From assembly GCF_002356355.1 (NCBI RefSeq), contig NZ_AP018052.1, positions 2,418,001 to 2,482,000 on the forward strand: a stretch of DNA of 64,000 bases, in the 5' to 3' direction. Position numbers and translations under genes: made by a program. Source of the stretch: Thiohalobacter thiocyanaticus (GTDB lineage Bacteria; Pseudomonadota; Gammaproteobacteria; Thiohalobacterales; Thiohalobacteraceae). Shown in pieces: positions 9,997 through 49,054 of the stretch. The notes beneath the pieces were generated by a model. That model did not search any database, was not told the DNA's origin, and worked only from the letters and a program-made list of their open reading frames with translations. Each line of letters starts with the position of its first letter. Within the stretch, counting starts at the first letter, position 1.

Positions 9997-10022
9997 CCAC
10001 CTGGAAACACGGAGACAAGGCC

Positions 10023-10430: not shown

Positions 10431-10470
10431 CCCCAGTTTACGCACTACGAGTTTTGACGGGAGGCAATTG

Positions 10471-10797: not shown

Positions 10798-10830
10798 AGG
10801 CCATTCACACCGGGCAGTAACGGGACAGGC

Positions 10831-11265
10831 ATGACCGACCTACAGGAATTCGTCGACACCTTCGAACTGCTGGGCGACTGGGACCAGCGTTACCAGTACC
10901 TGATCGAACTGGGCGAGCAGCTGCCGCCCATGCCCGGGGAACTCAAGACCGAGGACAACCGGGTCAAGGGCTGCATGAGCACCGTGCATATACATGCCTA
11001 CCCCGACCCGGAACAGCCGGGTGCGATCCAGTACCATGGCGACTGCGACACTGCCGTGATCAAGGGCGTTCTGGCCCTGCTGATCCAGCTCTCCAGCGGC
11101 CGCAGCGCCGCCGAGATCAATCAACTCGACATGGACGAGATCTTCGAAAAACTCCAGCTCGACGAGCAGCTCTCCCCCAACCGCCATATCGGCGTCTATG
11201 CCCTGTTCGAAATGATGAAGAACCAGGCCAGGGCGGCTCAGCAGAACGCCTCAACCCCGGCCTGA
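10831..11265 (+). CDS. sufE: Sulfur acceptor protein SufE
   Basis: The 144-residue protein carries the SufE active-site motif VKGCMSTV with Cys48, which takes persulfide from a cysteine desulfurase and hands it to SufB. It ends the suf operon, 33 bases after sufA. Its usual partner SufS is not encoded in the operon, so it must work with a desulfurase encoded elsewhere. Confidence 0.95.
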   Translation: MTDLQEFVDTFELLGDWDQRYQYLIELGEQLPPMPGELKTEDNRVKGCMSTVHIHAYPDPEQPGAIQYHGDCDTAVIKGVLALLIQLSSGRSAAEINQLDMDEIFEKLQLDEQLSPNRHIGVYALFEMMKNQARAAQQNASTPA

Positions 11266-29042: not shown

Positions 29043-29050
29043 GAGACACA

Positions 29051-32111: not shown

Positions 32112-32151
32112 GGATGCAGGACCTGTCAGTGGCGGATGAACGACGCAGGGA

Positions 32152-33231
32152 TCAGGCCTTGTCGGCCTTCTTCAACTGTTCCAGGGCCTCGGAATAATCG
32201 ACGTCGTCGCCGGAGAGCATGGCCATCATGATCAGTTTCTGCATCCGGTCGCGGTCCTTGCGTACCCGTTCCTCCAGCGCCTCGACCTTCTTCTCCAGCG
32301 CGATCAGGCGCCGCTCGGTGTCGGTGACCGTGTTGCTGGGACGGTCGGCTTCCGGGGCGGGCTCCGCCAGCCGGTTGTGCGGGGCCGGCTGGGCGGTGCG
32401 GGCGATGCGGTCAAGGTCCGGAGTTTCCTGGCGCTGCTCCTCGACCACGAACTGGACCGTATCGGCATTGAACTCGTGGATCTCCTCCAGACAACCGTAG
32501 AGGAACAGGCGGTCGCAGAGGTTGTTGATGCGCCGGGGCACGCCATCGCTGAATTCATGAATGGCGGCGAAGGCGGGCTCGGTGATGACCGGATCGTCCT
32601 GCCAGCCGACCAGCCGCAGCCGGTGCTTGACGTAGTCGATGGTCTCCTCCTGCTCCAGCGGCCCGAGGTGATAGGAGGCGATCACGCGCTGGCGGAACTG
32701 CTCCATGCCGGGCGACTGCAGGGTGTACTGGAACTCGCCCTGTCCGAGCAGGAAGCTCTGCAGCAGCGCCTTCTCGCCGACCTGGAAGTTGGACAGCATG
32801 CGCAACTCCTCCAGCGAGCGCGCCGGCAGGTTCTGCGACTCGTCCACCAGCAGCAGCAGCCGCTTGCCCTCGCGGGCGCGGGCGGTCATGAAGGTCTCCA
32901 GATTGCGCAGCACCTGGGCCTTGTCCGCACCCTGGCTCTGCAGGCCGAAGGCGGTGGCCACCGCGCGCACCAGGTCGTCGGATTCCAGCTGGGTGGTGAC
33001 GATCTGGGCGGCGATGATGTTTTCCTGCTGCAGGCTGTTGAGCAGGGCGCGCGCCAGCGTGGTCTTGCCGGTGCCGATGTCGCCGGTGATGATGATGAAG
33101 CCCTCACCCAGCTGCAGTCCGTAGCGCAGGTAGGCCAGCGCCTTGGAATGGCCCCGGCTCTGAAACAGGAAGCGCGGATCCGGACTCAGCCGGAAGGGCT
33201 TGGATTTCAGATTGTAGAAGCGCTCGTACAT
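32152..33231 (-). CDS. XrtA/PEP-CTERM-associated ExeA-like ATPase
   Basis: The start at 33231 (MYERFYNLKSKPFRLSPDP) shares one base with the stop of the upstream outer-membrane protein gene. The 359-residue product is an AAA+ ATPase like GspA/ExeA, with Walker A GDIGTGKTT (near 48), Walker B LLLLVDESQNL and an arginine-rich sensor region. The end (about 285-350) is a predicted coiled coil. ExeA-type ATPases act with envelope assembly machines; here it probably serves polymer export or cell-wall passage. Confidence 0.93.
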   Translation of the reverse strand: MYERFYNLKSKPFRLSPDPRFLFQSRGHSKALAYLRYGLQLGEGFIIITGDIGTGKTTLARALLNSLQQENIIAAQIVTTQLESDDLVRAVATAFGLQSQGADKAQVLRNLETFMTARAREGKRLLLLVDESQNLPARSLEELRMLSNFQVGEKALLQSFLLGQGEFQYTLQSPGMEQFRQRVIASYHLGPLEQEETIDYVKHRLRLVGWQDDPVITEPAFAAIHEFSDGVPRRINNLCDRLFLYGCLEEIHEFNADTVQFVVEEQRQETPDLDRIARTAQPAPHNRLAEPAPEADRPSNTVTDTERRLIALEKKVEALEERVRKDRDRMQKLIMMAMLSGDDVDYSEALEQLKKADKA

Positions 33232-34778
33232 CAGAACTCCATCCGCACTCTGGCGGTGATGCGGTTTTCCTCGTACTCGTTGGCGGCGCGATCCGACTCC
33301 TGCTCGGTGCGCCGCAGTTCCAGCGAGCCCCGGGCCCGGGGCGTGAAGTCGTGTTCCACCGACCACTGGGCGAACCAGAGCCGGTCGTCCTGGGTGCCGC
33401 TGGCGCGCAGGGTGTTGACCAGACCGCCGCGCAGGATGAAATCGGTGGTGCCGTCATAGGCCCAGCGCCAGGCGGCGTCGCCGCCGTTGACCCGCTCGGT
33501 GGTGCGGCTGGTCAGGAACAGCCGACGTTCGTTGAAGATGCGGCCGGTGAAGGTGCTGCGGCCGGTGTCGTAGCTGGCGGTGCCGCTGGCGCGTTTACGT
33601 TCGATGATCTCGTCGGTCAACACCAGCACGTCGACGGGAAGGAAAAACGATCCTGGCTGCGGCTGGTCGAAACTCACCTCGCCGGTGAAGAGATCCAGGT
33701 AGCCCCGCTCCAGTTCCGCCTGCTGCACCGTGGTGGTGTCCTCGTTATAGGTGGCGCTCAGGGTCAGCGCCGGCCCGCGGTGGCGGATACGCGCATCCCA
33801 GGCCGCGCCCAGAAGGGTGCCGACGTCGCGGTCGTAATAGGTGATCTCCACATCGGTGCGGCGGGTGGGGTTGAGCCGCAGGGTGGCGGTCTTGTACTCC
33901 TCGCCGTACAGGGCCTCCATGGCGTAGTAACGGCTGGGACGCCACAGGGCACCGCCGGCGACATAGCTGCCGTTCTCCACCTGGCGGGAACTGGGATAAT
34001 CGTTGTCCTCGTTGCCGGCGCGGGCCAGCAGCCGGAAGCTGTCGGTCAGCCGGTAGGCGACATCGGCACGGGTGGACTCGAAGCTGGCGTTGGGTGCACT
34101 GCTGCGGCTGATGCGGTTGCGGTTGTGGTTCAGGGACCAGGTCACCACGCGCCAGAACCGGCCGCTGGCCAGGTTGATATCGGCGCCGTCGGCGCTGGAG
34201 TCGGAGGCGCCGCCGCTCTCATAGCGGATCTCGTCGCGGGTATAGCGGGCCAGGACTTCCACCTGGCCGCCGAAATCGTGCACCAGATAGGGACTGATGC
34301 GCAGGGTGCCGACATCGTCCAGATCGCCGGCGCCGGTCACCGTGTCCAGCGACAGGCGTCCGGACTGGTTGGTGTTGCGCTGGGTGTAGGTGGCCAGGGT
34401 ATCCAGATAGAACCAGTCCGGCTTGAGCTCGAACTGGCCGGCCCCGAACAGCTTGTGATTGATGTCGTTACTGGAACTGGTATCGGCGAACAACAGCCCC
34501 TGCAGCTCGTAATCGAATTCCACCCGGGAGCGGCCGCCCTGCTTGCTGAGGTTCACCCCGGGGCTGACCTCGGTCACCAGGTCGGCGTCGCCGTCCGGTT
34601 CCAGTTCGATGTTATCGGTGAAGGTCTCGCTCAGGGTCAGGCGCGGCGTCACCTGCCAGCCCTGCGCCAACTCCTCCTCCTCGGCCAGAACCGCCGGACT
34701 GAGCAGGAGCGAGACCAGGGCCGGAACCAGCACGTATCCCTGTGGACGTTTGTTCTTATTGGCCGTATCCATAACCAT
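33231..34778 (-). CDS. PEP-CTERM/exosortase system outer-membrane beta-barrel protein
   Basis: The 515-residue protein has a signal peptide (YVLVPALVSLLLSPAVLA, cleaved near residue 32), and the mature part is made of alternating beta strands ending in RVRMEF with a terminal Phe, as in outer-membrane barrels. It belongs to the conserved XrtA-locus outer-membrane family of unknown precise role; it may form the export pore. Its start codon lies inside the Tyr-Gly-rich end of the tyrosine kinase gene, so the two overlap by 23 bases. Confidence 0.9.
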   Translation of the reverse strand: MVMDTANKNKRPQGYVLVPALVSLLLSPAVLAEEEELAQGWQVTPRLTLSETFTDNIELEPDGDADLVTEVSPGVNLSKQGGRSRVEFDYELQGLLFADTSSSNDINHKLFGAGQFELKPDWFYLDTLATYTQRNTNQSGRLSLDTVTGAGDLDDVGTLRISPYLVHDFGGQVEVLARYTRDEIRYESGGASDSSADGADINLASGRFWRVVTWSLNHNRNRISRSSAPNASFESTRADVAYRLTDSFRLLARAGNEDNDYPSSRQVENGSYVAGGALWRPSRYYAMEALYGEEYKTATLRLNPTRRTDVEITYYDRDVGTLLGAAWDARIRHRGPALTLSATYNEDTTTVQQAELERGYLDLFTGEVSFDQPQPGSFFLPVDVLVLTDEIIERKRASGTASYDTGRSTFTGRIFNERRLFLTSRTTERVNGGDAAWRWAYDGTTDFILRGGLVNTLRASGTQDDRLWFAQWSVEHDFTPRARGSLELRRTEQESDRAANEYEENRITARVRMEF

Positions 34779-35670
34779 AACCGTAGTAGTCCCCTCCGAA
34801 TGTGCGGTGGCTCTTGTTCAATACCAGGCCGACGATCTCGGAGTCATTCAGCATGCCCAGGGCCTCGGTGACGATGCGCTGCGGCGTCCTGGATTCCTCG
34901 ACCACCACCAGGATCTGCCCCATCAGCCCGGCCAGCACCCGGGCCTCGCTGGTCAGCATCAGCGGCGGTGAATCGAAGATGATGACCCGGTCCGGATAGC
35001 GCAATGACAACTCGTCGGCCAACCGGCGCATGTTGCTGCTACCGAGCAGTTCGGTCGAATGGGTGTGACGCTTGCCCGCCGGCAGCAGGCTCAGGCTGGG
35101 CACATTGGTGCGCAGCAGGGCATCCTGCACCCGGCACTCACCGAGCAGCACGTCGGTCAGGCCCTGACGGGCCGACACCCCCAGGCGCGAGGTCACTTCC
35201 GGCTTGGCGATATCGGCATCCACCAGCAGCACCGTCTTGTCCATCTCCATGGCGATGCTCATGGCCAGGTTGATGGCGGTGAAGGTCTTGCCCTCGCCGG
35301 CCACCGAACTGGTGACCATCACCAGGTTGGGATGCTCGACCTGAGAGGCCGACTCCCCCATCACATGGGCCAGGACCGGGCGCTTGATGCGCCGGAATTC
35401 CTCGGCCATGTAGTTATCCTTGGGATCGGCGCTGGGATCGAGGATACCATGCGCATAGAGGGCATCGATCCGGATCTGGGCATCCGGGTCGCGGGTATCG
35501 TTGAAACCGGGCGCCTCCGCAGCCGGCTGTGCGTAATCCTGGTGCGGGGTCGATCGGCGCGACTCCCGGGGCGCAGGTTCTGGCGCGGCTGCGGTGTCTT
35601 CGATCAGCTCGGGGGTATCGACCTTCTCCGCACCGCCCAGCTTCTCCATCGCCTTTTCGATTATGCTCAT
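34756..35670 (-). CDS. Exopolysaccharide tyrosine autokinase (CpsD/CapB-like)
   Basis: The 304-residue protein has Walker A VTSSVAGEGKTFTAI (near 124), Walker A' VLLVDADIAKP and Walker B IIFDSPP. The C-terminus is a tyrosine cluster (DYYGYGYGYGQ), the usual autophosphorylation site. It is the cytosolic kinase partner of the chain-length protein encoded just upstream and controls polymer length by cycles of phosphorylation. A matching phosphatase is not seen in the window. Confidence 0.95.
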   Translation of the reverse strand: MSIIEKAMEKLGGAEKVDTPELIEDTAAAPEPAPRESRRSTPHQDYAQPAAEAPGFNDTRDPDAQIRIDALYAHGILDPSADPKDNYMAEEFRRIKRPVLAHVMGESASQVEHPNLVMVTSSVAGEGKTFTAINLAMSIAMEMDKTVLLVDADIAKPEVTSRLGVSARQGLTDVLLGECRVQDALLRTNVPSLSLLPAGKRHTHSTELLGSSNMRRLADELSLRYPDRVIIFDSPPLMLTSEARVLAGLMGQILVVVEESRTPQRIVTEALGMLNDSEIVGLVLNKSHRTFGGDYYGYGYGYGQ

Positions 35671-35683
35671 GCGGCTCTCCCCG

Positions 35684-37228
35684 TCAGGCCCGCAACAGGT
35701 TCAGGTTCAGTATCTCGGCGGTGACCACCAGACCGTACAGGCACAGGAGGCCCACGGTGGCCATGGCCAGTCCGGCCAGGGCCAGCCGGCGTTTCTTCAG
35801 ATAGTCGTCGGTGTAGATCATGCACACGCTGCCGAACACCGGATGGCCGGTGAGTTCCTTGAGCAGGCGGGCATCCTCGAAGGTCGGGCGGATCTGATAC
35901 AGGAGAAAGCCGATCCCGCCCCCGACGCCGAAGGCCAGGCCCAGCACGATCGACATGAACATCACGCGCGGCGGGCCGGAGGGCTCGATCGGCACCCGCG
36001 GCGGATCCACCACCCGGAACTTGACGTCATCGGCCGAGATGTCGGCCTGCTTGGACAGCTTGGCCGCCTCGCGCCGCTCCAGCAGTTCCTCGTAGTTTGC
36101 CTTGTTGACGTTGTAATCCCGGTTCAGGCGAGCCAGTTCGGCCTCGACCTGGGGAATGGTGTTGATCATTTCCCGGAGTTTGGCCACGCGCTCCTCGTAC
36201 TCGTTCACCCGTACCTGCAGTCCGGCGATCTGGGACTCGGTCTCGCCGATCATGATCTTGAGCTGCTGGTAGACGGGATTGGCCTGCTGACCGCTGTCGG
36301 CCGAAGGCGGCTTGATCTGCGCGCGCTCCCGTTCCAGCTTGCGGATCAGGCCCTGGATCTCGATGACATCCGGGTGCTTGTTGGTATAGCGCAGCAGCAG
36401 GTCGTCGAGTTGCTGCTCCAGCGACCGGATGCGCGCATCCAGCGCCGCCCGTTCCGGCGACTCGCCGGCGCCGTACAGGGTGAACTCACTGGTCTGTTCC
36501 TCGAAGTCCTGCAGCTGGCGCTGCTGGGCGGCCAGGCGGTTCTCCAGTTCGCGCAACTGCAGCTGGGCGTTCTGCTGTTCGGCCAGCGCCGACTCCAGGC
36601 GCTTGTAATAGTCCTCGCCCTCCCCCGGCATCATACCGACGTGCTCACGCTTGAACTCGGCCAGCCGGTCCTCGGCCTCGCGCAGGCGCGACTCGTACTC
36701 CGCGATCTGGCGGTCGAGAAAATCCTGCGCGGCATCGGTATCGGCCCGGCTCTGGCCCAGGGTATTCTCCACGAAGATGGTCAGCAGCGACTGCACCACC
36801 CGTTTGGCCAGGTTGCGGTCACTGTCGGTGTAGGAAATGGTGTAGAGGTTTTCGTTGCGTGTGCTCTCGATGCGGATCTTGCTGCGCAGGCCCGAGATGA
36901 GGTCCTCCATCTGCTTCGGATTCTCGGCGCGCAGATCCAGATCGGTCATGCGCGCCAGCTGCTCGAGGTTGGGATTGCTGAGCAGGGTGCGGGTGATCAG
37001 CCCCACCTGCTCGACAGCGCCGGAATCGACGGCCAGGCCGCGCAGCAGCGGCCGCAGCATGGACTGGGTGTCCACATGCACCCGCGCCGAGGCCTGGTAG
37101 ACGTCCGGCATGCGCAGCACCGCCGCCCAGCCTATGATGCAGACCAGCCAGGTCACGGCCATCATCATCCAGCGGTAACGCCACATACCGCGCGCATAAC
37201 GGATCAGCTGATCGAGCAGCTCCTGCAT
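35684..37228 (-). CDS. Wzz-type chain-length determinant, XrtA locus subfamily
   Basis: The 514-residue protein has one membrane helix near each end (residues 20-38 and 430-450 or so), with a long periplasmic coiled coil between them (roughly 180-400), the standard layout of polysaccharide co-polymerases. A third hydrophobic stretch lies at 480-505. It sets polymer length together with the tyrosine kinase 13 bases downstream and the Wza-like exporter upstream. Confidence 0.95.
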   Translation of the reverse strand: MQELLDQLIRYARGMWRYRWMMMAVTWLVCIIGWAAVLRMPDVYQASARVHVDTQSMLRPLLRGLAVDSGAVEQVGLITRTLLSNPNLEQLARMTDLDLRAENPKQMEDLISGLRSKIRIESTRNENLYTISYTDSDRNLAKRVVQSLLTIFVENTLGQSRADTDAAQDFLDRQIAEYESRLREAEDRLAEFKREHVGMMPGEGEDYYKRLESALAEQQNAQLQLRELENRLAAQQRQLQDFEEQTSEFTLYGAGESPERAALDARIRSLEQQLDDLLLRYTNKHPDVIEIQGLIRKLERERAQIKPPSADSGQQANPVYQQLKIMIGETESQIAGLQVRVNEYEERVAKLREMINTIPQVEAELARLNRDYNVNKANYEELLERREAAKLSKQADISADDVKFRVVDPPRVPIEPSGPPRVMFMSIVLGLAFGVGGGIGFLLYQIRPTFEDARLLKELTGHPVFGSVCMIYTDDYLKKRRLALAGLAMATVGLLCLYGLVVTAEILNLNLLRA

Positions 37229-37250
37229 GATTGCGACCTTCTCTCTCGGC

Positions 37251-37883
37251 TCAGAACCAGGCTTCGGGGATGATCAGGATATCGCCTGGCATCATGCCGA
37301 CATTGGCCCGGATATCGCCGCCGTTGATCAGGTCGTCGATGCGCACATTGAACTGTCTGGACTCGCCATCGACCCTGCGCACCACGGTGGCGCGGTTGCC
37401 GGCGGCGAAATCGGTCAGTCCGCCCACCGCGATCATGACATCCAGCAGCGTCATGCCGTCACGGTAGGGAATGATCTTGGGATCGGAGGCCTGGCCGACC
37501 ACCCGGATCTGGCTGTCGTAGGTTCCCTGGAAGCTGGTGACCATGACCGTCACCACCGGATTCTTCACGTAGGTGCCCAGCTTCTCCTCCATCACCCGGG
37601 CCAGCTCGGTCGGGGTACGACCGCTGGCCTGGATATCCTCGATCAGAGGCGTGGTGATGCGCCCGTCGGGCCGCACCGGCACGGTGCTGGACAACTCGGG
37701 GTTGCGCCAGACGAAGATGTTGACCGAATCGCCCGGGCCGATCACATAATCGGGCGACTGGGTCACGGCCGGCGGCTCGCCGCCGAGCTGCTCGTAATTG
37801 GTGGCGCAACCGGCCACGCCCAGCAGGGCAGCCGCCGCCAGGGCCATGAACTTGCAGGCGAGTGATCTGAGTTCCATTTTCAC
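37251..37883 (-). CDS. Wza-like polysaccharide export lipoprotein
   Basis: Translation should start at GTG 37883, eight bases after AAGGGG. The 210-residue protein has a lipoprotein signal (LAAAALLGVAGC, Cys near 26), a Poly_export domain (YVIGPGDSVNIFVWRNPELS) and an SLBB domain (GMTLLDVMIAVGG). Short forms like this are typical of XrtA loci. It forms the periplasmic and outer-membrane part of the export channel. It is the first gene of the 17-gene run and has about 280 bases of non-coding DNA upstream. Confidence 0.95.
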   Translation of the reverse strand: MKMELRSLACKFMALAAAALLGVAGCATNYEQLGGEPPAVTQSPDYVIGPGDSVNIFVWRNPELSSTVPVRPDGRITTPLIEDIQASGRTPTELARVMEEKLGTYVKNPVVTVMVTSFQGTYDSQIRVVGQASDPKIIPYRDGMTLLDVMIAVGGLTDFAAGNRATVVRRVDGESRQFNVRIDDLINGGDIRANVGMMPGDILIIPEAWF

Positions 37884-37922: not shown

Positions 37923-38125
37923 ATCATGAATTCTGATTATTTATCAAGCAACCGATGTCCAGGCCGCAGTGCCCACCCTCCCGGTGGAACCGGCGATCTT
38001 GTTGACACCCCGGCCAGTGTAACGACTCGCCCGTGGACGGGCTACCCGGAGCGGCCGCCGGCGCTGTACCGGCGGACTGTAAAGAACATCGGCAATACAG
38101 TGCGAAAGTATAGGGGAAAATCAGA

Positions 38126-38160
38126 TTCCCGGTGTCAGCCAAGGCTGACACCGGGAATCT
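38126..38160 (-). terminator. Long perfect palindrome, likely terminator of the acyltransferase gene
   Basis: Arms of 16-17 bases (GATTCCCGGTGTCAGCC and its complement) with almost no loop begin next to the acyltransferase stop codon. On the minus strand the stem is followed by TGATTTTCC, a short U-rich tail. It separates the acyltransferase from the export operon. Confidence 0.65.
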
Positions 38161-38161
38161 G

Positions 38162-38938
38162 TCAACCGGCCGCGCTGCGGGAGGCAGGGACCCGCAGGGT
38201 CGGCTGGTCGCCGGAGAGGGAGTCGATCAGGGCGCGGAAGTCAGGGCGCTTGCGCTGGATGGTCTCGAGCAGCTGCTCGGGCCGGGCAATCATGGGCTGA
38301 CGCCGGCCGTGATAGTCGACAATCGGACCGATGGGGGTGAAATTGATGCCGAACCGGGTCAGCAGCCGGCTGAGTGAAGGCTCCATCACCGCGTACCAGT
38401 GGGTGATGCCTCGGCGGCGGCTCATGACGAACAGCATCGCAATCAGACCCAGCGAGATGTGGGGGAAGATGCGTCGCGCATCCTCGATCTGCTGTTCGGT
38501 GGCATATTCCAGTTCGCCGCTCACACCGGCGACCGTGCCCGACTCGCCCGGGCGGCGCTTGAATCCGCGGGCAACCGCGAAACGCGAGACTTCCGCCAGG
38601 TGCGCCCGGTCGACACCGAAGCGGTCAATCACCTTCTGGTCCAGCATCCCGGCGCACTGCAGTTCGACCGGGAAGGGGGTCTCGATGTCATCCGGGTCCG
38701 GCTGGATCAGACGCACCACGCCGGCGGGATAGCCGGTGCTGCGGTGCTGGACCAGGGCCTGCAGCGAGCGGGCATCGTAGGCGTCACGCTCCTGCCCGTC
38801 CGGGAAGGCCGCGGGGTCCTCGAAGCCGCGCTCCAGGCAGTAGACCTCGTAGCGCACCCGGTGGGCCCGTTCGCGCAACGGCTCGGTGGTGGCTTCCATT
38901 CCTTCGAGATAGCGGTAAAAACTGGTTAACAGATCCAT
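38162..38938 (-). CDS. PEP-CTERM/exosortase system-associated acyltransferase
   Basis: With the ATG at 38938 (MDLLTSFYRYLEGM) the protein has 258 residues. It is the XrtA-linked GNAT-type family related to N-acyl amino acid synthases (FeeM) and distantly to acyl-homoserine-lactone synthases; RVRYEVYCLERGFED near residue 30 and HLAEVSRFAVARGFKRR in the middle are typical. It is likely to transfer an acyl chain from acyl-ACP to an amino-acid or other amine. The product is unknown; a signal molecule or a lipid modification are both possible. It is transcribed separately and faces the E1-like gene. Confidence 0.92.
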   Translation of the reverse strand: MDLLTSFYRYLEGMEATTEPLRERAHRVRYEVYCLERGFEDPAAFPDGQERDAYDARSLQALVQHRSTGYPAGVVRLIQPDPDDIETPFPVELQCAGMLDQKVIDRFGVDRAHLAEVSRFAVARGFKRRPGESGTVAGVSGELEYATEQQIEDARRIFPHISLGLIAMLFVMSRRRGITHWYAVMEPSLSRLLTRFGINFTPIGPIVDYHGRRQPMIARPEQLLETIQRKRPDFRALIDSLSGDQPTLRVPASRSAAG

Positions 38939-39218
38939 GCCCAACCCCCAAAATTCAAATAAAAAAATCAAACACCTGTCACAAGCACTACATACGCCCT
39001 CTGACGCCGGACAACCGTTAAATCGTTCACATTTACGCCCATCGGCCAGCCCGGAGTGTCACGGGTCACAGCCAAACCTACCAGACTTTGATGTCAAAAT
39101 CGGCCCGACAGGCGCATTCATTGAGCCGGAACCGTGAACCGGGTCACAAAGCCCGCAAAAGAGAATACAATAGGCCATTTCCGCCCCGCGGCCGGCAGCT
39201 GGACAACGGATATAACAA

Positions 39219-41186
39219 ATGACGCCACCCGCGTACGACTATCAGGAAGCCGTTTCACGCAACCTCGGCTGGGTCACGCCCCGGGAGCAGGCCGTCCTGC
39301 GCGACCGGCGCGTGGCCATCGCCGGCATGGGTGGCGTCGGCGGCAGCCACCTGCTCACCCTCAGCCGACTGGGCGTGGGCGCCTTCTCCATCGCCGATTT
39401 CGATGACTTCGAACTGGCCAATTTCAACCGCCAGGCCGGGGCCATGTCCTCCACCCTGGGACAGCCCAAGGTGGATGTGCTGGCCCGGATGGCCGCCGAC
39501 ATCAACCCGGAAGTGGATCTGCGCCGGTTCCCGGCCGGCATCGGCGAGGCCGACCTGGAGGCCTTTCTGGATGATTGCGATCTGTATATCGATGGCCTGG
39601 ATTTCTTTGCCATGGCCATCCGCCGGGCCATGTTCGCCGCCTGCCACCGGCTGGGCATCCCGGCGGTAACCGCCGCCCCGCTGGGCATGGGCACGGCGGT
39701 GCTGTGCTTTCTGCCCGGCGGCATGAGCTTCGAGGACTATTTCTGCCTCGAAGGCCGGGACGAGACCCAACAGCTGCTGCGCTTCCTGGTCGGACTGGCC
39801 CCGGCCGGCCTGCATCGGGCCTATCTGGTGGATCCGCGCAGTATCGACCTGGCCCGCCACCGCGGCCCCTCGACCAGCATGGGCTGCGAACTGGCCGCCG
39901 GCGCCGCCGCCAGCCAGGCGCTGAAGCTCCTGCTCAACCGCGGTCCGGTCCTGGCCGCTCCTCACGGCATCCAGTACGACGCCTACCGCAACCGCGCCCG
40001 ACGCACCTGGCGGCCCGGCGGCAACCGGCATCCGCTGCAGCGGCTGACCCTGACCCTGGCGCGGCGGCAGATGCAGCGTCTGGCAGACGCCCCGAGCCCG
40101 CCGGCCGCCGCGCCTCCCGAGGCCACTCTGGACCGGGTCCTGGACCTGGCCCGCTGGGCGCCGAGCGGCGACAACACCCAGCCCTGGACCTTCGAGCGCG
40201 TCGACGCCGACCAGTTCATCATTCAGGGCTGTGATACCCGTGACCACTGTGTCTATGACCTCAACGGCCATGCCAGCCAGCTCGCTGTCGGCACCCTCCT
40301 GGCGACGGCCCGCATCGCGGCCAGCGGTGAAGGCTGCCGGCTGCAGGCCGGGTTCGAGCCCGACTCGCACGAGCAGGCTCCGCGGCTGCGGGTACGGCTG
40401 GAGCCGGATCCCACCGTCAGTCCCGATCCCCTGCGCCATTTCATCACCCACCGGGCTGTTCAGCGCCGCCCCCTGTCGACCCGGGCGCTGACCGCCCGGG
40501 AAAAGGCCCGGCTGGAGGCCGCCGTCGGGCCGGATTACGGGCTGGTATGGCTGGAGGGCTGGCGCTCGCGGCGGCAGATGGCCGGGCTGTTGTCACTGAA
40601 CGGCAAGCTGCGTCTGACCCTGCCCGAGGCCTACCCCACCCACAGCAGCATCATCGAGTGGGGGGCCCGCTACAGCACCGACCGCATCCCGGAACAGGCC
40701 GTGGGGGTCGATTACCTCACCGCCCGCTTGATGCAATGGGTGCTCGGCAGCTGGAACCGGGTGGCCTTCATGAACCGCTACCTGGCCGGCACCCTGATGC
40801 CACGGCTGCAGCTCGATGTGCTGCCCGCCCTGCTGTGCGGCGCGCATTTCCTGCTCGTCGCCCCACGCCCGCCGGTGGACCACCGGGACTACATCGCCGG
40901 CGGCGAGGCCGTGCAGCGGTTCTGGCTCACCGCCAGCCGCCTGGGGCTGCAACTCCAGCCCGAATACACGCCGCTGGTGTTCGACGAATACGTCCGGCTG
41001 GACACACCCTTCACCGAACATGCGCCGTCCCGCGCGCGCGCGCGCCAGGTCAGCCAGCGGCTGCGTGAACTGTTCGGCCAGGAGGCCTGCCATCGGGCCC
41101 TCTTCCTGGGTCGGATCGGCGCCGGCGACCCGCCCCGGGCACGCTCGACACGCAAGCCCCTGGACAGCCTCATGCGTCCTGACTGA
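39219..41186 (+). CDS. E1-like (ThiF) adenylyltransferase fused to a nitroreductase-like domain
   Basis: The 655-residue protein has two parts. Residues 1-290 form an E1/ThiF domain: GMGGVGGSHL (near 35-44) binds ATP, and DFDDFELANFNRQ supplies the conserved Asp and Arg. The paired CxxC zinc motif of many ThiF/MoeB proteins is absent. Residues 305-640 resemble a flavin nitroreductase, opening with LDRVLDLARWAPSGDNTQPW. E1 domains adenylate carboxylates, and nitroreductase folds carry out FMN redox steps, such as azoline oxidation in peptide natural products. It lies next to the acyltransferase and 270 bases before the PEP-CTERM gene. Substrate unknown; no signal peptide. Confidence 0.85.
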   Translation: MTPPAYDYQEAVSRNLGWVTPREQAVLRDRRVAIAGMGGVGGSHLLTLSRLGVGAFSIADFDDFELANFNRQAGAMSSTLGQPKVDVLARMAADINPEVDLRRFPAGIGEADLEAFLDDCDLYIDGLDFFAMAIRRAMFAACHRLGIPAVTAAPLGMGTAVLCFLPGGMSFEDYFCLEGRDETQQLLRFLVGLAPAGLHRAYLVDPRSIDLARHRGPSTSMGCELAAGAAASQALKLLLNRGPVLAAPHGIQYDAYRNRARRTWRPGGNRHPLQRLTLTLARRQMQRLADAPSPPAAAPPEATLDRVLDLARWAPSGDNTQPWTFERVDADQFIIQGCDTRDHCVYDLNGHASQLAVGTLLATARIAASGEGCRLQAGFEPDSHEQAPRLRVRLEPDPTVSPDPLRHFITHRAVQRRPLSTRALTAREKARLEAAVGPDYGLVWLEGWRSRRQMAGLLSLNGKLRLTLPEAYPTHSSIIEWGARYSTDRIPEQAVGVDYLTARLMQWVLGSWNRVAFMNRYLAGTLMPRLQLDVLPALLCGAHFLLVAPRPPVDHRDYIAGGEAVQRFWLTASRLGLQLQPEYTPLVFDEYVRLDTPFTEHAPSRARARQVSQRLRELFGQEACHRALFLGRIGAGDPPRARSTRKPLDSLMRPD

Positions 41187-41243: not shown

Positions 41244-41351
41244 ACCGGGCAAATCATCCCGGCGCAGCGCAATTGAGTGGCATGGCCGACGCCCGATCAT
41301 GTCCATTTTTTTTACATTCACATCCGGCGCCATTCCTCGGCAATAATAAAT

Positions 41352-41376: not shown

Positions 41377-41393
41377 TTGGCACGCAAACTGCT
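41377..41393 (+). promoter_or_regulatory. Sigma-54 (RpoN) promoter of the PEP-CTERM gene
   Basis: TTGGCACGCAAACTGCT has the complete -24 element TTGGCACG, exactly ten bases between GG and GC, and a -12 CTGC. The predicted transcript starts about 50 bases before the ATG at 41458. It fits control by the sigma-54 activator PrsR encoded at 49055-50419. Confidence 0.88.
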
Positions 41394-41457: not shown

Positions 41458-42372
41458 ATGAAAAAGCAACTCTTGGCAAGCCTTGGGGCAAGCATGCTGG
41501 CCGTCAGCGGCGCGGCCAATGCCGCCTTTCTGCTGGATGACTGGACCCTGGACGTGACAGGCGTCGACGGCCTGGTGGCCGGTGACGTGCTCGGCACACC
41601 GCACACCGTGGTCTCCGGGATCAGCCAGATGTCCTTCCTGGCCCAGGGGCTGTCGGTGACCAACGACACCAACGGCGACGGCCTGCCCAGCGTCGGCGAG
41701 ACCTTCGACGTCTTCGCCAACGGCCGCATCAGCGACTTCGTCGACAACGGCGGCAGCAGCGTGTCCCCCATCCTGCTCAACACCGACGCCTCCTCCGGTG
41801 CCCAGAACGGCTGGGAAATGACCTTCACCTTCGAGGTGAGCGGCGCCTACACCGCGCTCAACGCCGGCTCCGCCGAGTTCACCCACCTGGCCGCCGGCAT
41901 GGCGGGCACCACCGGTGAACTGAAGTTCTACATCGACGACATCACCGACGGCTCCAAGTCGGCCCTGTCCGCAGCCGCCCCGCAGGCTGACGACGGCACC
42001 CACATCGCCACCTTCCTGATCAGGGCCGGTGACGGCGGTGTCTTCAGCTTCCTGACCGGCGACGGCTCCGACGACGCCCGCTTCGAGCTCGACTGGGCCC
42101 TGCCCGGTGTGTTCCTGGACAAGGACGGCGACAGCCTGACCGCTGACGGCACCCTGATCGGCATGTCGGATTCCAACTTCGACTCCGATCCGGACGGCAC
42201 CGGCACGCCCTTCAGCTTCAACATCGGCGCCTTCAACTGCGGCAACTCCGCCACCAACTTCTGCTTCGAGGAAGATGGCAGCTTCCGCATCCCCGAGCCG
42301 GGCATCCTGGCCCTGCTGGGCGCCGGCATCCTGGGGCTGACCCTGACGAGCCGCCGCCGCAAGTCCGCCTGA
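41458..42372 (+). CDS. PEP-CTERM sorting-domain protein (exosortase substrate)
   Basis: The ATG at 41458 follows GGGAG and gives 304 residues. A signal peptide (residues 1-22, ending AANA) is followed by a Asp/Gly/Ser/Thr-rich domain with calcium-loop-like stretches (DTNGDGLPSVGE, DKDGDSLTADG) and a Cys pair (FNCGNSATNFCFEE). The C-terminus is a textbook PEP-CTERM signal: IPEPGILALLGAGILGLTL, then RRRK. XrtA is expected to cleave at the PEP motif and pass the protein to the surface or matrix. It is monocistronic, between a sigma-54 promoter and a strong terminator. Confidence 0.96.
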   Translation: MKKQLLASLGASMLAVSGAANAAFLLDDWTLDVTGVDGLVAGDVLGTPHTVVSGISQMSFLAQGLSVTNDTNGDGLPSVGETFDVFANGRISDFVDNGGSSVSPILLNTDASSGAQNGWEMTFTFEVSGAYTALNAGSAEFTHLAAGMAGTTGELKFYIDDITDGSKSALSAAAPQADDGTHIATFLIRAGDGGVFSFLTGDGSDDARFELDWALPGVFLDKDGDSLTADGTLIGMSDSNFDSDPDGTGTPFSFNIGAFNCGNSATNFCFEEDGSFRIPEPGILALLGAGILGLTLTSRRRKSA

Positions 42373-42691: not shown

Positions 42692-42715
42692 CTCTGCGCC
42701 TTTGCGCCTTCGCGG
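42692..42715. repeat. Half copy of the CTCTGCG dispersed repeat
   Basis: CTCTGCGCCTTTGCGCC resembles the right arm of the elements at 55868-55889 and 58134-58158. No left arm is visible. Confidence 0.5.
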
Positions 42716-42761
42716 AGAGATCTTTTCCAATACCGAGAGCCAACCGGATAGAGCCCCGCCC

Positions 42762-43634
42762 ATGCCCAGTCTCGCCATCGCCAGAGTCATGCTCCGGGAG
42801 TTGTTCACCTTCAGCCAGGTCGAGCGCGAGCCCGAGCCGGATCTGGTCATGGACGACCCGGACAAGGTGGCGGCCTATACCCGGGCCGGACGCGTGGACG
42901 GCGTCATGGCGCCGGTCTATCTCTTCCACGGCGCCAATATCCTGGAGATCCTGAAACCCGGCGACCGGGCCATCGATCTGGCCTGCGGCCCTGCCACCCA
43001 GCTGGGCATGGTGGCCGAACTCGCCCCCGAGGTGAATTTCACCGGCATCGATCTGTCCGATGAAATGCTCGGGATCGCGGAGCGCTACATCCAGGAACGG
43101 GGGTATGACAATGTCTCGCTGCTGCGCAGCGACATCAGCCGCCTGCAGGCCCTGGAGGACAACAGCGTGGATGCGGTCTTCTCCACCATGGCCCTGCACC
43201 ATCTGCCGGACCCGGCGCATCTGGAGGCCACCTTCCGCGAGATCAGCCGGGTGCTCAGGCCCGGAGGCGGGATCTACCTGGCGGATTTCGCCCGGCTCAG
43301 GTCACCGGCCTCCATCCAGTACTTTGCCTACCAGTACGCGGACCGCCAGCCCGAGTTGTTCACGCTCGATTATCTCTACTCGCTCAAGGCGGCCTTCAGT
43401 GTGGCCGACTTCCGCGCCGCGACCGCGCACCTGGACGGCCGGGCCCGGCTCTACGCCCCGCATGTCATGCCCTTCATGCTGGCGGTAAAGAGTGCGGCAC
43501 GCAGCACCGAGCAGGCGCGGCTGCGTCCGGCGCTGGCCGCAATCGCCGCCGCCCTGCCGCCGAATCACAAGACCGATCTGAAGGATCTGAAAACCATCTT
43601 CCGGCTGGCCGGGATGAAATGCGGCCTGGTGTGA
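42762..43634 (+). CDS. Class I SAM-dependent methyltransferase
   Basis: With the ATG at 42762 the product is 290 residues. The SAM-binding motif AIDLACGPATQLGMVAE (near 88), the acidic loop FTGIDLSDEML and the post-motif ALHHLPDPAHLEATFREISRVLRPGG place it among ubiquinone/menaquinone-type methyltransferases. An N-terminal helical part (residues 1-80) is less conserved. The substrate is unknown. It is isolated between the PEP-CTERM gene and the TPR genes, convergent with the latter. Confidence 0.88.
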   Translation: MPSLAIARVMLRELFTFSQVEREPEPDLVMDDPDKVAAYTRAGRVDGVMAPVYLFHGANILEILKPGDRAIDLACGPATQLGMVAELAPEVNFTGIDLSDEMLGIAERYIQERGYDNVSLLRSDISRLQALEDNSVDAVFSTMALHHLPDPAHLEATFREISRVLRPGGGIYLADFARLRSPASIQYFAYQYADRQPELFTLDYLYSLKAAFSVADFRAATAHLDGRARLYAPHVMPFMLAVKSAARSTEQARLRPALAAIAAALPPNHKTDLKDLKTIFRLAGMKCGLV

Positions 43635-43658: not shown

Positions 43659-46244
43659 TCATTCCACCGGCGCCCTGCCGTTGAGCTCCAGCATCCTGTT
43701 ATAGGTATCCTTGACCGCCGGATTGTTGCGCTGCATCAGGTAGGCCTTCTCGGCATGCCGCAGGGCTTCTTCGGGCCGCTCCTCGGCAATCAGCATGGCG
43801 TAGTTGTTGAGCGCGGCGACATGATCCGGGGCCCGCTCGAGCAGACGCTGGTACAACTCCCTGGCCCGGGCGTGCGCCCCGGTCTGGATATAAACCCTCC
43901 CCAGGGCCGCCATCACCTCCAGATCCTCGCCTTCCTGTTTCAGCCAATCGTCCAGGACCGCCTCCGCCCGATCGGCTGCGCCGGTTCTGAGGTACTTGTC
44001 CGACAGCAGAATCGCGATCCGCGGCAGATGCAGTTGCTCATACAGCGCCTCGAAATACTGGATGGAGCCCTCCTCGTTGCCCTGGACCGACTCGAGGACG
44101 CCGGCGAACATCCTGGCTTCCCGACTGTCCGGGTAGAACTGCTCCAGCCGCGCGACCGTCGCTGCCGCGGTCTCGACCCGGCCTTCCAGCAGCGCGGCCT
44201 GGGACCGGATCATCAGCGCGGTGAAGTTCCTCTCATCCCGTTCCAGGATGCGCTGTGCCGCCGCAGCCGCCTGCTGCGGCTGCCCCAGCGCCAGCGAGGT
44301 ACGGGCCCGCAGCTGCAGATACTCCAGACTGTCCAGAACCGAGGCCGGCAGCCCGCTGAGGGCATAGTCGGCGGAGGGGAAGTTGCCCTGTTCGAGATAG
44401 GCCCGTGCCAGGGCCAGCCCGGCCTGGGTACCAACGGCGCCGGATGTCTCGCTGCGCAGCAGACCGACCGCCTTGTCGTAGCGCCCGAGCAGCGTGTAGA
44501 TATTCGCGGCACTGACGCGAGTGCGCGGATCGTTGTCATGCAGGGCACGCTCGATGTGAGTCTCGGCTGCCCCGGCCTCGCCACGCTGTGTCATGATCCG
44601 TGCCAGTCCGAGGTTGGCCCGGGGCTCCTGCGGCTCAATGGCCAGAATCCTGCGATAGTAGGACTCGGCGTCCTCCAGATCGCCCGAGCGCATATAGAAC
44701 ACAGCCAGATTGCTGAGCGCACCGATATCGTCGGGATCGGCCTCGATGGCGGCGAGGAAGGCGTCTTCGGCCTGCTCCGACTCGCCTCTGGAGGCATGAA
44801 TCAGGGCACGCAGTTCGCGGAAATCGGCATTATCCGGGGACTCGGCAAGCACCGACTCGATCAGGGCCCCGGCCTTGTCGACTTCGCCCCTGTCGATCAG
44901 CTTGAGCGCGACCAGCTTGCGGATCTCCAGCGGCTCGGCCGCGCTCTCCACCACCTGGTCGATTTCGGCCAGACCGGCCTCGCTCTGCCCGGAGTCCAGC
45001 AGCAGCATGCCCAGGTTCATCCGGTAGGCAACGTTGTCGGGATCCTGGTCCAGCAGCGCATCGACCACCTCCCTGACCCGGGCCATGTCGCCAGCGCGCA
45101 GATAGGTTTCACCCAGCAGGGTCAGCACCGAAGGATCATCCGGCCGGATCTGTCTCAGACCCTGCAGCAGCTCAATGGCGCGGGGATAGTCGCCGAGCCG
45201 GAAAAAGACATGTGCGCGGATCTTGTCCAGCGGATAGAAGCTGCGTTGTATCGAACTGACGAAACGTTCGATATGGGTATTCGCCTGCTGATCGTTGCCC
45301 AGCGCATAGTGGGTCAGTCCCAGATACATATGGGCCGGGACAAAGGCGTCATAGGTACTGACCACGCGTTCGAAGTGACTCAGGGCCGGCGGGTAATCGG
45401 CCTCGGTGAACAGCAGCAGCCCCTCGATGTAATCAACCGCGGGGTGTCGGGGTGCAATCGCCTTGAGCTGTTTGAGATTGGCCACGGCCGCCTCGCGATC
45501 GGAGTCGGCCATCGCGATCAGCGCCAGATCGATGTAGACGTTGTAGAAACGCGCGCCCGCATCCACCGCAGCGAGAAGATGCCGCTTTGCCTGTTCCAGC
45601 GCCTGCAGCCGCAGGTAGAGCCGGCCGATCAATGCCTGGAGATAGGGGTCACCCGGCTCCAGGGCATCCAGACGTTCCCGGGCCGTCTCCCTGTCACCCT
45701 GGCCAAGCCTGTACATGATGCCGGCCAGCTGGACGTCGCCAAGCTCCGGCGCAAGCGACTCGGCCTGCTGCAGATAGGTCTGCGCCCGCCGAACATCCCT
45801 GGCCTGCAGTGTTGCCAGTGACTTGTACGCCAGTACCTGTGCAGTGACCGCGCTCCCCAGCCCCTCGGGTTCCAGCGCCAGCAGGCGCTGATGACTGGGC
45901 GCGGAATAATAGGCCCTGGCCAGCCGCGGATAGACGGCTGCCGGCGCCATGCCCAGTTCCAGCGCCTTCTCCAGTTCCTTGTAGGCCGCATCCAGCTTCC
46001 ACTGCTTCATGTAGGCATCGGCGAGCAGCCACCTGGCCTCGATATCGTCGGGGTCGGCCCGCAGCAGATTCTTGAGATGGATCTCCGCCGCCTTGTAGTC
46101 GTACTCGGCAATCCGGCTTTTCGCCTCCAGGCGGGTCTCTTCCGGGGTCATTGAGTCAAAGCCGCAGGCGGCAAGCGCCAGGGCAAGTACACAGGTTGCA
46201 AGTATGACGGGCGCGTTGCGGAGCAATCTGCCAATACAAATCAT
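43659..46244 (-). CDS. PrsT-like TPR lipoprotein (second paralogue)
   Basis: The 861-residue protein starts with a lipoprotein signal (VLALALAACGFDS; lipid-bearing Cys near residue 27). The rest is a continuous solenoid of about 20 TPR units, from YDYKAAEIHLKNLLRADPDD to RPEEALRHAEKAYLMQRNN. It matches the long TPR lipoproteins of PEP-CTERM systems. It follows the prsT gene by 26 bases and is about equally long, so it looks like a diverged tandem duplicate. Anchoring in the outer membrane and a scaffold role in polymer or PEP-CTERM export are inferred. Confidence 0.9.
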   Translation of the reverse strand: MICIGRLLRNAPVILATCVLALALAACGFDSMTPEETRLEAKSRIAEYDYKAAEIHLKNLLRADPDDIEARWLLADAYMKQWKLDAAYKELEKALELGMAPAAVYPRLARAYYSAPSHQRLLALEPEGLGSAVTAQVLAYKSLATLQARDVRRAQTYLQQAESLAPELGDVQLAGIMYRLGQGDRETARERLDALEPGDPYLQALIGRLYLRLQALEQAKRHLLAAVDAGARFYNVYIDLALIAMADSDREAAVANLKQLKAIAPRHPAVDYIEGLLLFTEADYPPALSHFERVVSTYDAFVPAHMYLGLTHYALGNDQQANTHIERFVSSIQRSFYPLDKIRAHVFFRLGDYPRAIELLQGLRQIRPDDPSVLTLLGETYLRAGDMARVREVVDALLDQDPDNVAYRMNLGMLLLDSGQSEAGLAEIDQVVESAAEPLEIRKLVALKLIDRGEVDKAGALIESVLAESPDNADFRELRALIHASRGESEQAEDAFLAAIEADPDDIGALSNLAVFYMRSGDLEDAESYYRRILAIEPQEPRANLGLARIMTQRGEAGAAETHIERALHDNDPRTRVSAANIYTLLGRYDKAVGLLRSETSGAVGTQAGLALARAYLEQGNFPSADYALSGLPASVLDSLEYLQLRARTSLALGQPQQAAAAAQRILERDERNFTALMIRSQAALLEGRVETAAATVARLEQFYPDSREARMFAGVLESVQGNEEGSIQYFEALYEQLHLPRIAILLSDKYLRTGAADRAEAVLDDWLKQEGEDLEVMAALGRVYIQTGAHARARELYQRLLERAPDHVAALNNYAMLIAEERPEEALRHAEKAYLMQRNNPAVKDTYNRMLELNGRAPVE

Positions 46245-46270: not shown

Positions 46271-49033
46271 TCAGTCTGCGCTGTTCAACTGCTGATACAG
46301 CGAGCGCGCCTGTTCGGGTCGGGACAGCTCATCGAACCGGCGTTCGATCTCCCTGAGTTCCAGCAGGGCAGCCTTGTTCTTGCCGTTGCGGTGATAGGCC
46401 GCTGCCAGGTGATAGCGGATATCGGGGATATGCGGGGCCAGCACCGCCGCTTCCTTCAGCAGCCGCTCGGCCTCGACCGGTCGGTCGTTCTTCAACAGCA
46501 GCCAGCCATAGGTATCGATGATCTCGGGACGTGAAGCCGACAGCTCATAGGCCCTGGCCGCGTACTCCAGCCCGCGTTCGGGATCCGTTTCGGCGGCGAT
46601 GACCGCGGCATTGTTCAGCGCCGGGACGTTGTCCGGCTGCCTTTCGAGCACCGTCTGATATTCCTCCAGCGCGGCCGCGGACTCGCCGGCGCGACCGAGG
46701 TCGGAGGCATAGATCAGTCGAACATCGGTATCGTCAGGGTATGACTGCAGCCAGGTCTCAAGCACTGTCCGCGCCGGGCCGGTGTCTCCCTGCGCCTTAT
46801 GCACACGGTAGAGCTTGGTCATCAGGGGACGCGTGGCGCTTCTGGCATAGGCCTGGCGATAGGCCTCAAGCGCCTCAGCCGGCGCCTGTCGGCGCATGTG
46901 AAAGTCACCTTCCAGTTCGAATCCCAGGCCGATGTCCGCATATTCTTCTTGCGTCCGTTCGATCAGGGCCAGGGCCTTGTCGTCCTGTCCCTGCGCGGCA
47001 TAGGCCTCGGTCAGCAGAATCCGGGCTTCGATGTCCTCCACTCCCAGTTCCAGGGCACGTTCCAGCGGGGCGATGGCCTTGCCGGTCTCATTTCGCGCCA
47101 GATGCAGGCGGCCGAGCAGATAATGCGCATAGCCGTTTTCCGGCGTCTTTTCGACCAGTGATCTGATGGTGGCCTCGGCATTGGCATGGTTGCCGCTGTT
47201 GATCTGCACCAGGCCGAGCTTGGCAAGCACCCGCGGCTGTCCCGGATGCCGGCGGTCCAGATCGGACAATACGACCAGGGCCTTGTTCAACTCATCGTTG
47301 CGGGCCAGATAATCGGCATAGGCCAGTCCCGGCTGCAGTTCGCTCTCATGGCCTTCATAGGCCTTCCGGTACAGGTCCGCGGCGCCTTTCCGATCACCCG
47401 TGGCCTCGGCAAGTCTGGCCCGTGCCAGCAGTACCCCTGGTGATCCCGCCCCCTGGCGTTCGGCACGTTCGAGGATATCCGCGGCGGCGGCCGCATTGCC
47501 GTCCTGAAACTCGACATTGGCCAGGTTGATATAGGCAGCGGAGAACGCCGGATCCGCGTCGATCGCCTGCTGCAGGGTCTGACGCGCGGCCCTGCGCTCA
47601 CCCATGGCCAGCTGGACCACAGCATGCAGATTGGCCGCTTCCGCGCTGTCCGGATACCTGTTGCGCATTGCCTCCACGGCACGCAAGGCGGCGGCATGAT
47701 CCTCCAGCGCCATGTAGGACATGACCAGCAGGCGGTCATAGCCCATGCCGCCCTCGGCATCAGTGAGTGAACGCAGTTCCTCCAGTCCCGTTTCCCGGTC
47801 CCCCTGCAGAATGCGTCCCATCGCCAGCTGCGCCTGGACCGGCAGCGCTTCCGGCGCGATTTCCCGCGCCCGTTCCAGATACTCCATGGCCCGTTCGACC
47901 TCGCCGACCTGCATGTAGGCCGCACCGAGTTGAGCCAGATACCCGGCATTGTCCCTGGCGGCTTCGGCGGCCGGCTGCATGATCTCGATCGCCTCCTTCA
48001 CCTTGCCCTGCTGCAGACTGATGCTGCCCAGCATCTGCCTTGCCGGTACATGCGCCGGGGCGTATTCCAGATAATCGCTCAGATAGAGCCGGGCCTGATC
48101 CAGATTGCCGCGCTGATGATGAATGGTCCCCAGGAACAGCATCGCCGGCGCGTGCTTGGGCTGCACCGACAGGACCTTGTTGAAGGCGGCGAGCGCCTGA
48201 TCATGGTTGCCGGCACTGAATTCGAGCAGGCCATCAAGGTGTATCACCTGGGCGTTCTCCGGCAGCACTTCCAGCAACTCGTCGACAACCGGACGCGCCG
48301 CGGAGAACTCGCCCTGGACGATCAGCGCCTGGGCCTTGCCGAGACGGGCAACGATATCGTCCGGCCTGACCTCCAGCGCCCGGTCGAACCAGGTCACCGC
48401 CTCCGGTCGTTTCTCGGCCGCGAGAATCTGTGCCTTGACCAGGTTGGCACTGTAGCTGCCGCGATCGCTGTCCAGCGCCCGGTCGACAAGCTGGTGCGCC
48501 TGTGCATGATCGCCGGCGTTGTAGGCCAGCTGGGCCAGGCCGAGATGGGCATCGGCGTGCTTGTCGTCCAGGGTCAGCGCCTGGCGGAACTGCTCCTCGG
48601 CCTGAGTCAGTTCGCCCTGGGCCATCAGGGCCTGGGCACGCAGCACCCGGATATCGGCGGCCAGCGCCGCCGGATCATCCGCCGTGACCTCGATTTCCTG
48701 CAGTACCTCGTCGAACCTGGCCTGCCGCAGCAGGGACTGGGCCAGTCCGGTGACCCAGTCGGCGCGCGCCGCCTTTAGCCGCCGCGCCTGCCTGAACTCC
48801 TTTTCCGCCGCCGCGGCATCGCCGGTTTCGAGATGGATCCGGGCCAGCAGCAGCCGGGCATCACGGTTGTCCGGCGCCTCCTTCAGGGCGTTTTTCAGCT
48901 GGATCACCGCGGCCCGGTATTCCTGCCTGGCATAGTAGTCCCTGGCCTCCTCCAGATAGTCCGCGGCCACCGCGGTGATGGGAAGCAGCAGTCCTGCGAT
49001 CATTCCCCGGATCAATCGTGTGCTGGCATGCAT
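46271..49033 (-). CDS. prsT: PEP-CTERM system TPR protein PrsT
   Basis: The ATG at 49033 is preferred because AGGA lies seven bases before it; an ATG six bases upstream is too close to that site. The 920-residue protein has an N-terminal signal (GMIAGLLLPITAVAA) followed by more than 20 TPR units. PrsT proteins are usually lipoproteins, but here there is no Cys at the cleavage site, suggesting a soluble periplasmic form. The order prsK-prsR-prsT is the standard one in XrtA genomes, which supports the name. Confidence 0.9.
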   Translation of the reverse strand: MHASTRLIRGMIAGLLLPITAVAADYLEEARDYYARQEYRAAVIQLKNALKEAPDNRDARLLLARIHLETGDAAAAEKEFRQARRLKAARADWVTGLAQSLLRQARFDEVLQEIEVTADDPAALAADIRVLRAQALMAQGELTQAEEQFRQALTLDDKHADAHLGLAQLAYNAGDHAQAHQLVDRALDSDRGSYSANLVKAQILAAEKRPEAVTWFDRALEVRPDDIVARLGKAQALIVQGEFSAARPVVDELLEVLPENAQVIHLDGLLEFSAGNHDQALAAFNKVLSVQPKHAPAMLFLGTIHHQRGNLDQARLYLSDYLEYAPAHVPARQMLGSISLQQGKVKEAIEIMQPAAEAARDNAGYLAQLGAAYMQVGEVERAMEYLERAREIAPEALPVQAQLAMGRILQGDRETGLEELRSLTDAEGGMGYDRLLVMSYMALEDHAAALRAVEAMRNRYPDSAEAANLHAVVQLAMGERRAARQTLQQAIDADPAFSAAYINLANVEFQDGNAAAAADILERAERQGAGSPGVLLARARLAEATGDRKGAADLYRKAYEGHESELQPGLAYADYLARNDELNKALVVLSDLDRRHPGQPRVLAKLGLVQINSGNHANAEATIRSLVEKTPENGYAHYLLGRLHLARNETGKAIAPLERALELGVEDIEARILLTEAYAAQGQDDKALALIERTQEEYADIGLGFELEGDFHMRRQAPAEALEAYRQAYARSATRPLMTKLYRVHKAQGDTGPARTVLETWLQSYPDDTDVRLIYASDLGRAGESAAALEEYQTVLERQPDNVPALNNAAVIAAETDPERGLEYAARAYELSASRPEIIDTYGWLLLKNDRPVEAERLLKEAAVLAPHIPDIRYHLAAAYHRNGKNKAALLELREIERRFDELSRPEQARSLYQQLNSAD

Positions 49034-49054
49034 GGTCATATCCTTTTTATTCCG

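Follow-up and report, generated by a model that had tools for sequence, protein, structure and literature searches.

The window, i.e., the whole stretch of 64,000 nucleotides analysed here, contains an XrtA/PEP-CTERM island in which a predicted N-acyl amino acid synthase gene is divergent from a gene coding for a fused E1-flavin oxidase. The following features were identified at this locus.

26257-37883, minus strand: XrtA/EPS operon lying beyond the acyltransferase gene, with genes for XrtA, FemAB, a deacetylase, an ATPase, a tyrosine kinase, and chain-length and export proteins
38162-38971, minus strand: predicted TIGR03694-type N-acyl amino acid synthase, ORF of 269 aa, divergent from the fusion gene
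38939-39218, no strand: divergent intergenic region between the acyltransferase and fusion genes, without a -24/-12 RpoN site
39219-41186, plus strand: ThiF/E1-flavin oxidase fusion, predicted OxzB-type oxazolone synthetase, 655 aa (Pfam/NCBIfam, AlphaFold2, fold search)
39231-40031, plus strand: predicted E1/ThiF adenylating cyclase domain, residues 5-271 (GxGGVGG 36-42, D60, R71, K84, D128)
40116-41183, plus strand: flavin-dependent oxidase domain of the nitroreductase superfamily, Acg-like, residues 300-655
41458-42372, plus strand: PepA-like PEP-CTERM protein between the fusion and methyltransferase genes (NF033554, 83.6 bits, cut-off 80; TIGR02595, 22.6 bits, cut-off 16)
42702-43634, plus strand: class I SAM methyltransferase, candidate optional tailoring enzyme (PF13649 and other matches)

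On the side opposite the XrtA operon, we found the PepA-like gene, the methyltransferase gene (whose actual start is probably close to 42762), two PrsT paralogues, PrsR and PrsK. The two PrsT-type TPR proteins are encoded in tandem (43659-46244 and 46271-49039) and scored 483 and 640 bits on TIGR02917. A second exosortase-like gene of the genome (G000:C1:612610-613386) was below the XrtA cut-off (192 bits). No RNA families were found in the window with Rfam. The closest named relative was Thiohalobacter thiocyanaticus, which matched at 92% in the E1 part and had an identical gene order.

The acyltransferase scored 241.3 bits against NCBIfam TIGR03694 (PEP-CTERM/exosortase system-associated acyltransferase; cut-off 111.95) and was the sole match to this family in the 3.23 Mb genome. 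Judging from conservation in two close relatives, the ATG at 38938 is the likelier start. The best folds for its AlphaFold2 model (pLDDT 86.9) were the AHL synthase TofI (Z 18.1) and the N-acyl amino acid synthase FeeM (Z 16.6), in agreement with the sequence-only reading, which had described a divergent FeeM/LuxI-related acyltransferase at this position. The putative catalytic Glu, E116 of the ExSR motif, was invariant in 36 relatives. The protein is predicted from the model to have the FeeM/AHL-synthase fold together with the catalytic Glu expected of an N-acyl amino acid synthase. Just past its stop codon lies an inverted repeat that looks perfect by eye (AGATTCCCGGTGTCAGCC...GGCTGACACCGGGAATCT, 38123-38160) and is probably a terminator.

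In the 655-residue fusion protein, PF00899 (ThiF) matched residues 13-268 (E=9e-40), and matches to PF00881 (nitroreductase, E=4e-9) and NF047509 (Acg-type FMN oxidoreductase, E=6e-25) were also found. Its AlphaFold2 model, built on a 56-row alignment, had a pLDDT of 91.8. In fold searches, E1 residues 5-271 matched AclA, ThiF, MoeB, MccB and PaaA (Z 23-27), and oxidase residues 300-655 matched Acg of M. smegmatis (2YMV; Z 30.4, rmsd 2.7 A, 294 residues aligned), which was also recovered by profile comparison (E 7e-17). AclA of Tenacibaculum (PDB 9EGB) was among the best E1-fold matches, and a literature search on it found no paper. Both folds are thus predicted with high confidence, and the coordinates and domains of the ThiF/E1-flavin oxidase fusion proposed earlier were confirmed. 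A gap-free alignment with MoeB over E1 residues 24-128 paired D128, R71 and K84 with D130, R73 and K86, which we take to be the ATP-site residues of MoeB. These three residues and the glycine loop were invariant or nearly so across 23 E1 sequences, and D128 occupies a conserved Asp position equivalent to TrzS D217 and MoeB D130. The oxidase domain carries APSGDNTQPW (314-323), R412, R416, R465, W569 and Q580; it has the APSxxNTQPW flavin motif in common with Acg 2YMV, and A314, P315, S316, D318, N319, R412, R416, W569 and Q580 were invariant among 16 diverse oxidase domains. Q580 and R465 were conserved, and their pairing with TrzS Q651 and R540, made by profile position alone, is approximate. 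Retention of ATP- and FMN-site residues in a confident model had been suggested as a check on the fusion, and this is what was observed. The best NCBIfam model was PRK08223, an unnamed family; the fusion did not reach the cut-off of the TrzS/Rv1355c family NF005901 (165.9 vs 476 bits) and scored far under that of PRK14851.

Upstream of pepA, a TTTACA box (41311-41316) and a -24/-12 site (41377-41393, TTGGCACGCAAACTGCT) form, by motif, a clear promoter of the PrsR/RpoN type. It has been reported that PEP-CTERM genes carry such a box and site (PMC1569441). No -24/-12 RpoN site was found in the intergenic region 38939-39218. Among relatives, the RpoN motif was not enriched upstream of E1 (2/122) or synthase genes (3/113), compared with 23/89 for PEP-CTERM genes and a background of 1.4%. 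Co-regulation with pepA via PrsR/RpoN was rejected on both grounds, and because there is neither an intergenic site nor enrichment in relatives, the E1/acyltransferase cluster falls outside the PrsR/RpoN regulon as far as this motif is concerned.

Occurrence was examined in a class-wide sample of 369 genomes, in which XrtA and TIGR03694 were counted when over cut-off. The E1 gene was present in 40 genomes, XrtA in 73 and TIGR03694 in 47. We found that 36 of the 40 E1 genomes also had XrtA (Fisher p 4e-25, relatedness ignored) and that 30 had TIGR03694 (p 1e-23, relatedness ignored). In these 30 genomes, the distance between the E1 and TIGR03694 genes was at most 1 kb in 17, and both genes lay on one contig within 25 kb in 28. 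Similarly, a synthase was found in the retrieved flank of 27 of 32 fused E1-oxidase loci, and within 1.5 kb in 25 of them. The adjacency of E1 and acyltransferase is well beyond chance. That the two are functionally coupled, and that their neighbourhood should be conserved among related genomes, had been proposed from the window; both points were upheld by this linkage. The methyltransferase occurred in 8 of the 369 genomes, 7 of which had the E1 gene (p 8e-7), in many cases no more than 2 kb away; within XrtA genomes alone this association was borderline (6/7 vs 30/66, p 0.056). In Stieleria, a methyltransferase gene also adjoins ThiF and nitroreductase genes (PMC12479983), and the enzyme is a candidate for tailoring of the product in some genomes.

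The gene architecture varied among relatives (80 named loci, which were nearest relatives and not a random sample, with mechanical ORF calling in high-GC loci). E1 and oxidase formed one fused gene in some genomes and adjacent separate genes in others. A single frame broken by one TAA (L046:207-2168) is intermediate between the fused and split forms. Because fused, split and oxidase-less forms were intermixed in the E1 tree (quick method, 29 changes), the fusion is not one clean clade; the deep joins of this tree are unsafe because of long branches. Where TIGR03694 was absent, a FeeM synthase commonly stood beside E1 instead, either alone or fused to a cyclic-nucleotide-binding domain, and a genome of the same family as that of the window (G237, locus L065) shows this swap of synthases. 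Fusions of the latter kind (~410 aa) were seen near E1 at L065:10881-12110, L056:15866-17116 and L132:520-1740; they apparently represent ligand-controlled N-acyl amino acid synthases. Similarly long FeeM ORFs, candidates for the same arrangement, were noted in L063, L064, L137 and L145. L061 and L121 have a PrsT-like gene immediately next to E1 and in the same orientation. Massilia terrae (L148) has consecutive genes for FeeM, ThiF and nitroreductase near XrtA polysaccharide genes; the gene set is that reported for M. kyonggiensis, the producer of kyonggic acid (PMC12479983). Nitrosospira multiformis likewise has a FeeM version of the cluster. In Thiodiazotropha and a relative (L089, L090, L113, L124, L133 and L136; ~9230-10880), the synthase gene overlaps the E1 gene, and no flavin oxidase was found within 10 kb of these pairs. 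Such a pair may make a saturated azlactone, or desaturation may be carried out by another enzyme. No recognisable N-acyl amino acid synthase was found within 10 kb of the adjacent E1 and oxidase genes in Duganella, Janthinobacterium and Rugamonas loci (e.g., L086, L100, L105 and L122).

Plasmids of Nitratidesulfovibrio vulgaris, a member of another phylum, encode FeeM (E 5e-44), ThiF (E 6e-49) and nitroreductase (E 2e-8) domains in one protein of 974-989 residues. These triple-fusion genes (PRK14852; L154:5062-8031 and L153:7062-9986) are located within an XrtA locus with adjoining PEP-CTERM genes. Their products resemble the protein studied here in having a fused E1-oxidase in such a setting, and differ from it by the N-terminal FeeM domain, with ~32-37% identity over the shared part. 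Within the plasmid collection, matches were found in Nitratidesulfovibrio and Bdellovibrio only.

The sequence-only reading had presented the pathway as uncharacterised. This view did not hold, since closely similar chemistry is already known for OxzB, TyzB/TyzC and TrzS (PMC10404671, PMC12856293). In Pseudoalteromonas rubra (de Rond et al. 2021), OxzB is the same ThiF-nitroreductase fusion (PMC10404671) and is located beside the N-acyltransferase OxzA, a likeness drawn from published descriptions. OxzA acylates Tyr/Phe, and the accessible parts of the citing papers mention no exosortase link. The M. tuberculosis system begins with acylation of Tyr/Phe by TyzA, followed by ATP-dependent cyclisation by TyzB (ThiF) and desaturation with O2 by TyzC (PMC10404671). 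TyzA, TyzB and TyzC (Rv2336, Rv2338c and Rv2337c) provide the same three activities, with the synthase divergent from the ThiF gene; the ThiF and oxidase genes are separate, the system is actinobacterial, and no XrtA link was described in the literature searched. In the second mycobacterial system, TrzA/TrzS (Rv1356c/Rv1355c), ThiF and flavin oxidase are fused and the acyltransferase is adjacent, as here. TrzS converts N-acyl tryptophan to tryptazolone with ring closure first, D217A being cyclase-deficient and R540A desaturase-deficient (PMC12856293). Its products are tryptazolones with short chains, and the fusion described here is under the TrzS family cut-off, as noted above. The clusters for stieleriacine, kyonggic acid and thalassotalic acid have an identical enzyme set (NasY, ThiF and nitroreductase, with a methyltransferase in Stieleria), and the Stieleria cluster is also adjoined by PEP-CTERM and EPS genes (PMC7293339). 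However, the synthase named in them is NasY and not TIGR03694, ThiF and nitroreductase are separate, and the reported product is an N-acyl dehydrotyrosine, not an oxazolone (PMC12479983). Finally, the available parts of the sources report N-acyl amino acid synthases beside PEP-CTERM genes (Craig et al. 2011), an observation repeated for the stieleriacine cluster (PMC7293339). These synthases, including ExoAT of Methylomonas LW13, resemble the acyltransferase studied here in being tied to an exosortase locus and differ in that no E1-oxidase partner is described in those parts.

Because the fusion architecture and the neighbouring synthase match OxzB and TrzS, whose chemistry has been shown, we propose an oxazolone-type chemistry for the pair. 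By analogy, it is highly probable that the two genes form an XrtA-linked cluster of the oxzAB type, by which an N-acyl amino acid would be made, ring-closed and desaturated. The TIGR03694 enzyme would move a fatty acyl group from acyl-ACP or acyl-CoA onto the amino group of an amino acid, which on precedent is probably aromatic. The E1/ThiF domain would then adenylate the carboxylate of the N-acyl amino acid, and attack by the amide oxygen would close the ring to a 5(4H)-oxazolone (azlactone), releasing AMP. The FMN domain with O2 would desaturate the CA-CB bond, yielding an N-acyl alkylidene oxazolone or, after ring opening, an N-acyl dehydroamino acid, which a methyltransferase might decorate in some genomes. 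The domains, the confident folds, the invariant ATP- and FMN-site residues, the linkage of three activities and the linkage to XrtA/PEP-CTERM all argue for this reading, whereas the relatives lacking an oxidase or a nearby synthase, and the scores far under the TrzS and PRK14851 cut-offs, count against it. The sequence-only reading had offered an acylated amino-acid-type metabolite as one option, which is favoured by these data. It had also left the substrate open; this stands for the exact amino acid and chain and not for the substrate as a whole, as OxzB, TyzB/TyzC and TrzS work on N-acyl aromatic amino acids (PMC10404671, PMC12856293).

With the same enzymes and first steps, the released product may differ. 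In this sub-variant of the oxzAB-type reading, the azlactone would be a transient that acidifies the alpha carbon for desaturation, and an N-acyl dehydroamino acid of the stieleriacine or kyonggic acid type would be released. In organisms that make N-acyl dehydrotyrosines with the same three kinds of gene (ThiF, nitroreductase and synthase), no oxazolone was detected (PMC12479983), which counts against an oxazolone as the end product; TrzS also cyclises before it desaturates (PMC12856293), and a methyltransferase is located near the genes, as in Stieleria. On the other hand, OxzAB, TyzABC and TrzAS release oxazolones, and oxazolones hydrolyse in acid or methanol, so that the open forms may be artefacts. 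Because producers with the same genes show no oxazolone and oxazolones hydrolyse easily, the end product may be open-chain, an outcome that we consider a real possibility, if a somewhat doubtful one.

Two other explanations would remove the link between the enzymes or change their target. The TIGR03694 enzyme and the E1-oxidase might have separate functions, both being gained with the XrtA island, and it is true that both track XrtA and that, in the 369 genomes, TIGR03694 occurred without E1 in 17 and E1 without TIGR03694 in 10. However, within XrtA genomes alone their co-occurrence persisted (26/30 vs 10/43, p 7e-8), their spacing was mostly far below the size of an island, the triple fusion occurs in another phylum, and the partner swaps to FeeM, all of which make independent functions very unlikely. 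Still less credible is an E1 that activates a ubiquitin-like or ThiS-like protein, or the carboxyl of a PEP-CTERM protein, for conjugation or sulfur transfer, with the flavin domain modifying the conjugate. The E1 fold has a full ATP site and the gene sits among PEP-CTERM genes, as such an activity would have it, but the fusion lacks the Zn CxxC motifs seen in MoeB/ThiF, and no small GG-ending protein was found nearby. A search of 36-45 kb for a ubiquitin-like partner returned nothing except one antisense GG-ending frame inside the NTR coding region, in accordance with the earlier statement that no small ubiquitin-like gene is near. The modification of a protein or PEP-CTERM target, or a ubiquitin-like cascade, which the sequence-only reading had also considered, is unsupported.

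The oxazolone chemistry and this arrangement of genes both have precedents in other bacteria, and an exosortase link had been noted earlier for the synthases and, in a single genus, for the complete cluster. The present analysis adds a measure of how strongly E1 is associated with XrtA, a triple fusion within an XrtA locus in a different phylum, the exchange of one synthase family for another and the negative outcome for RpoN; part of this may already be in print. No paper connecting oxazolones to PEP-CTERM or exosortase came up in a literature search, which is not proof of absence. It is conceivable, though unlikely, that the exosortase system itself makes use of the oxazolone. The compound could be a diffusible signal connected with the PrsK/PrsR/PrsT circuit or with the production of EPS; alternatively, the azlactone, being reactive, could acylate an amine of a surface protein or polysaccharide and thereby provide the lipid or acceptor missing from the exosortase step. 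The idea of a regulated signal fits the PrsT-like gene adjoining E1 in two loci and the cyclic-nucleotide-binding domain fused to the synthase. A role in EPS or exosortase function is worth testing because ExoAT, a synthase of the same annotation, is required for formation of the polysaccharide band in Methylomonas LW13 (PMC11072679). The unnamed families PRK08223, PRK14851 and PRK14852 would gain a predicted function that can be tested, and the main point of interest is that an oxazolone kit appears to have been repeatedly built into a bacterial system for sorting surface proteins.
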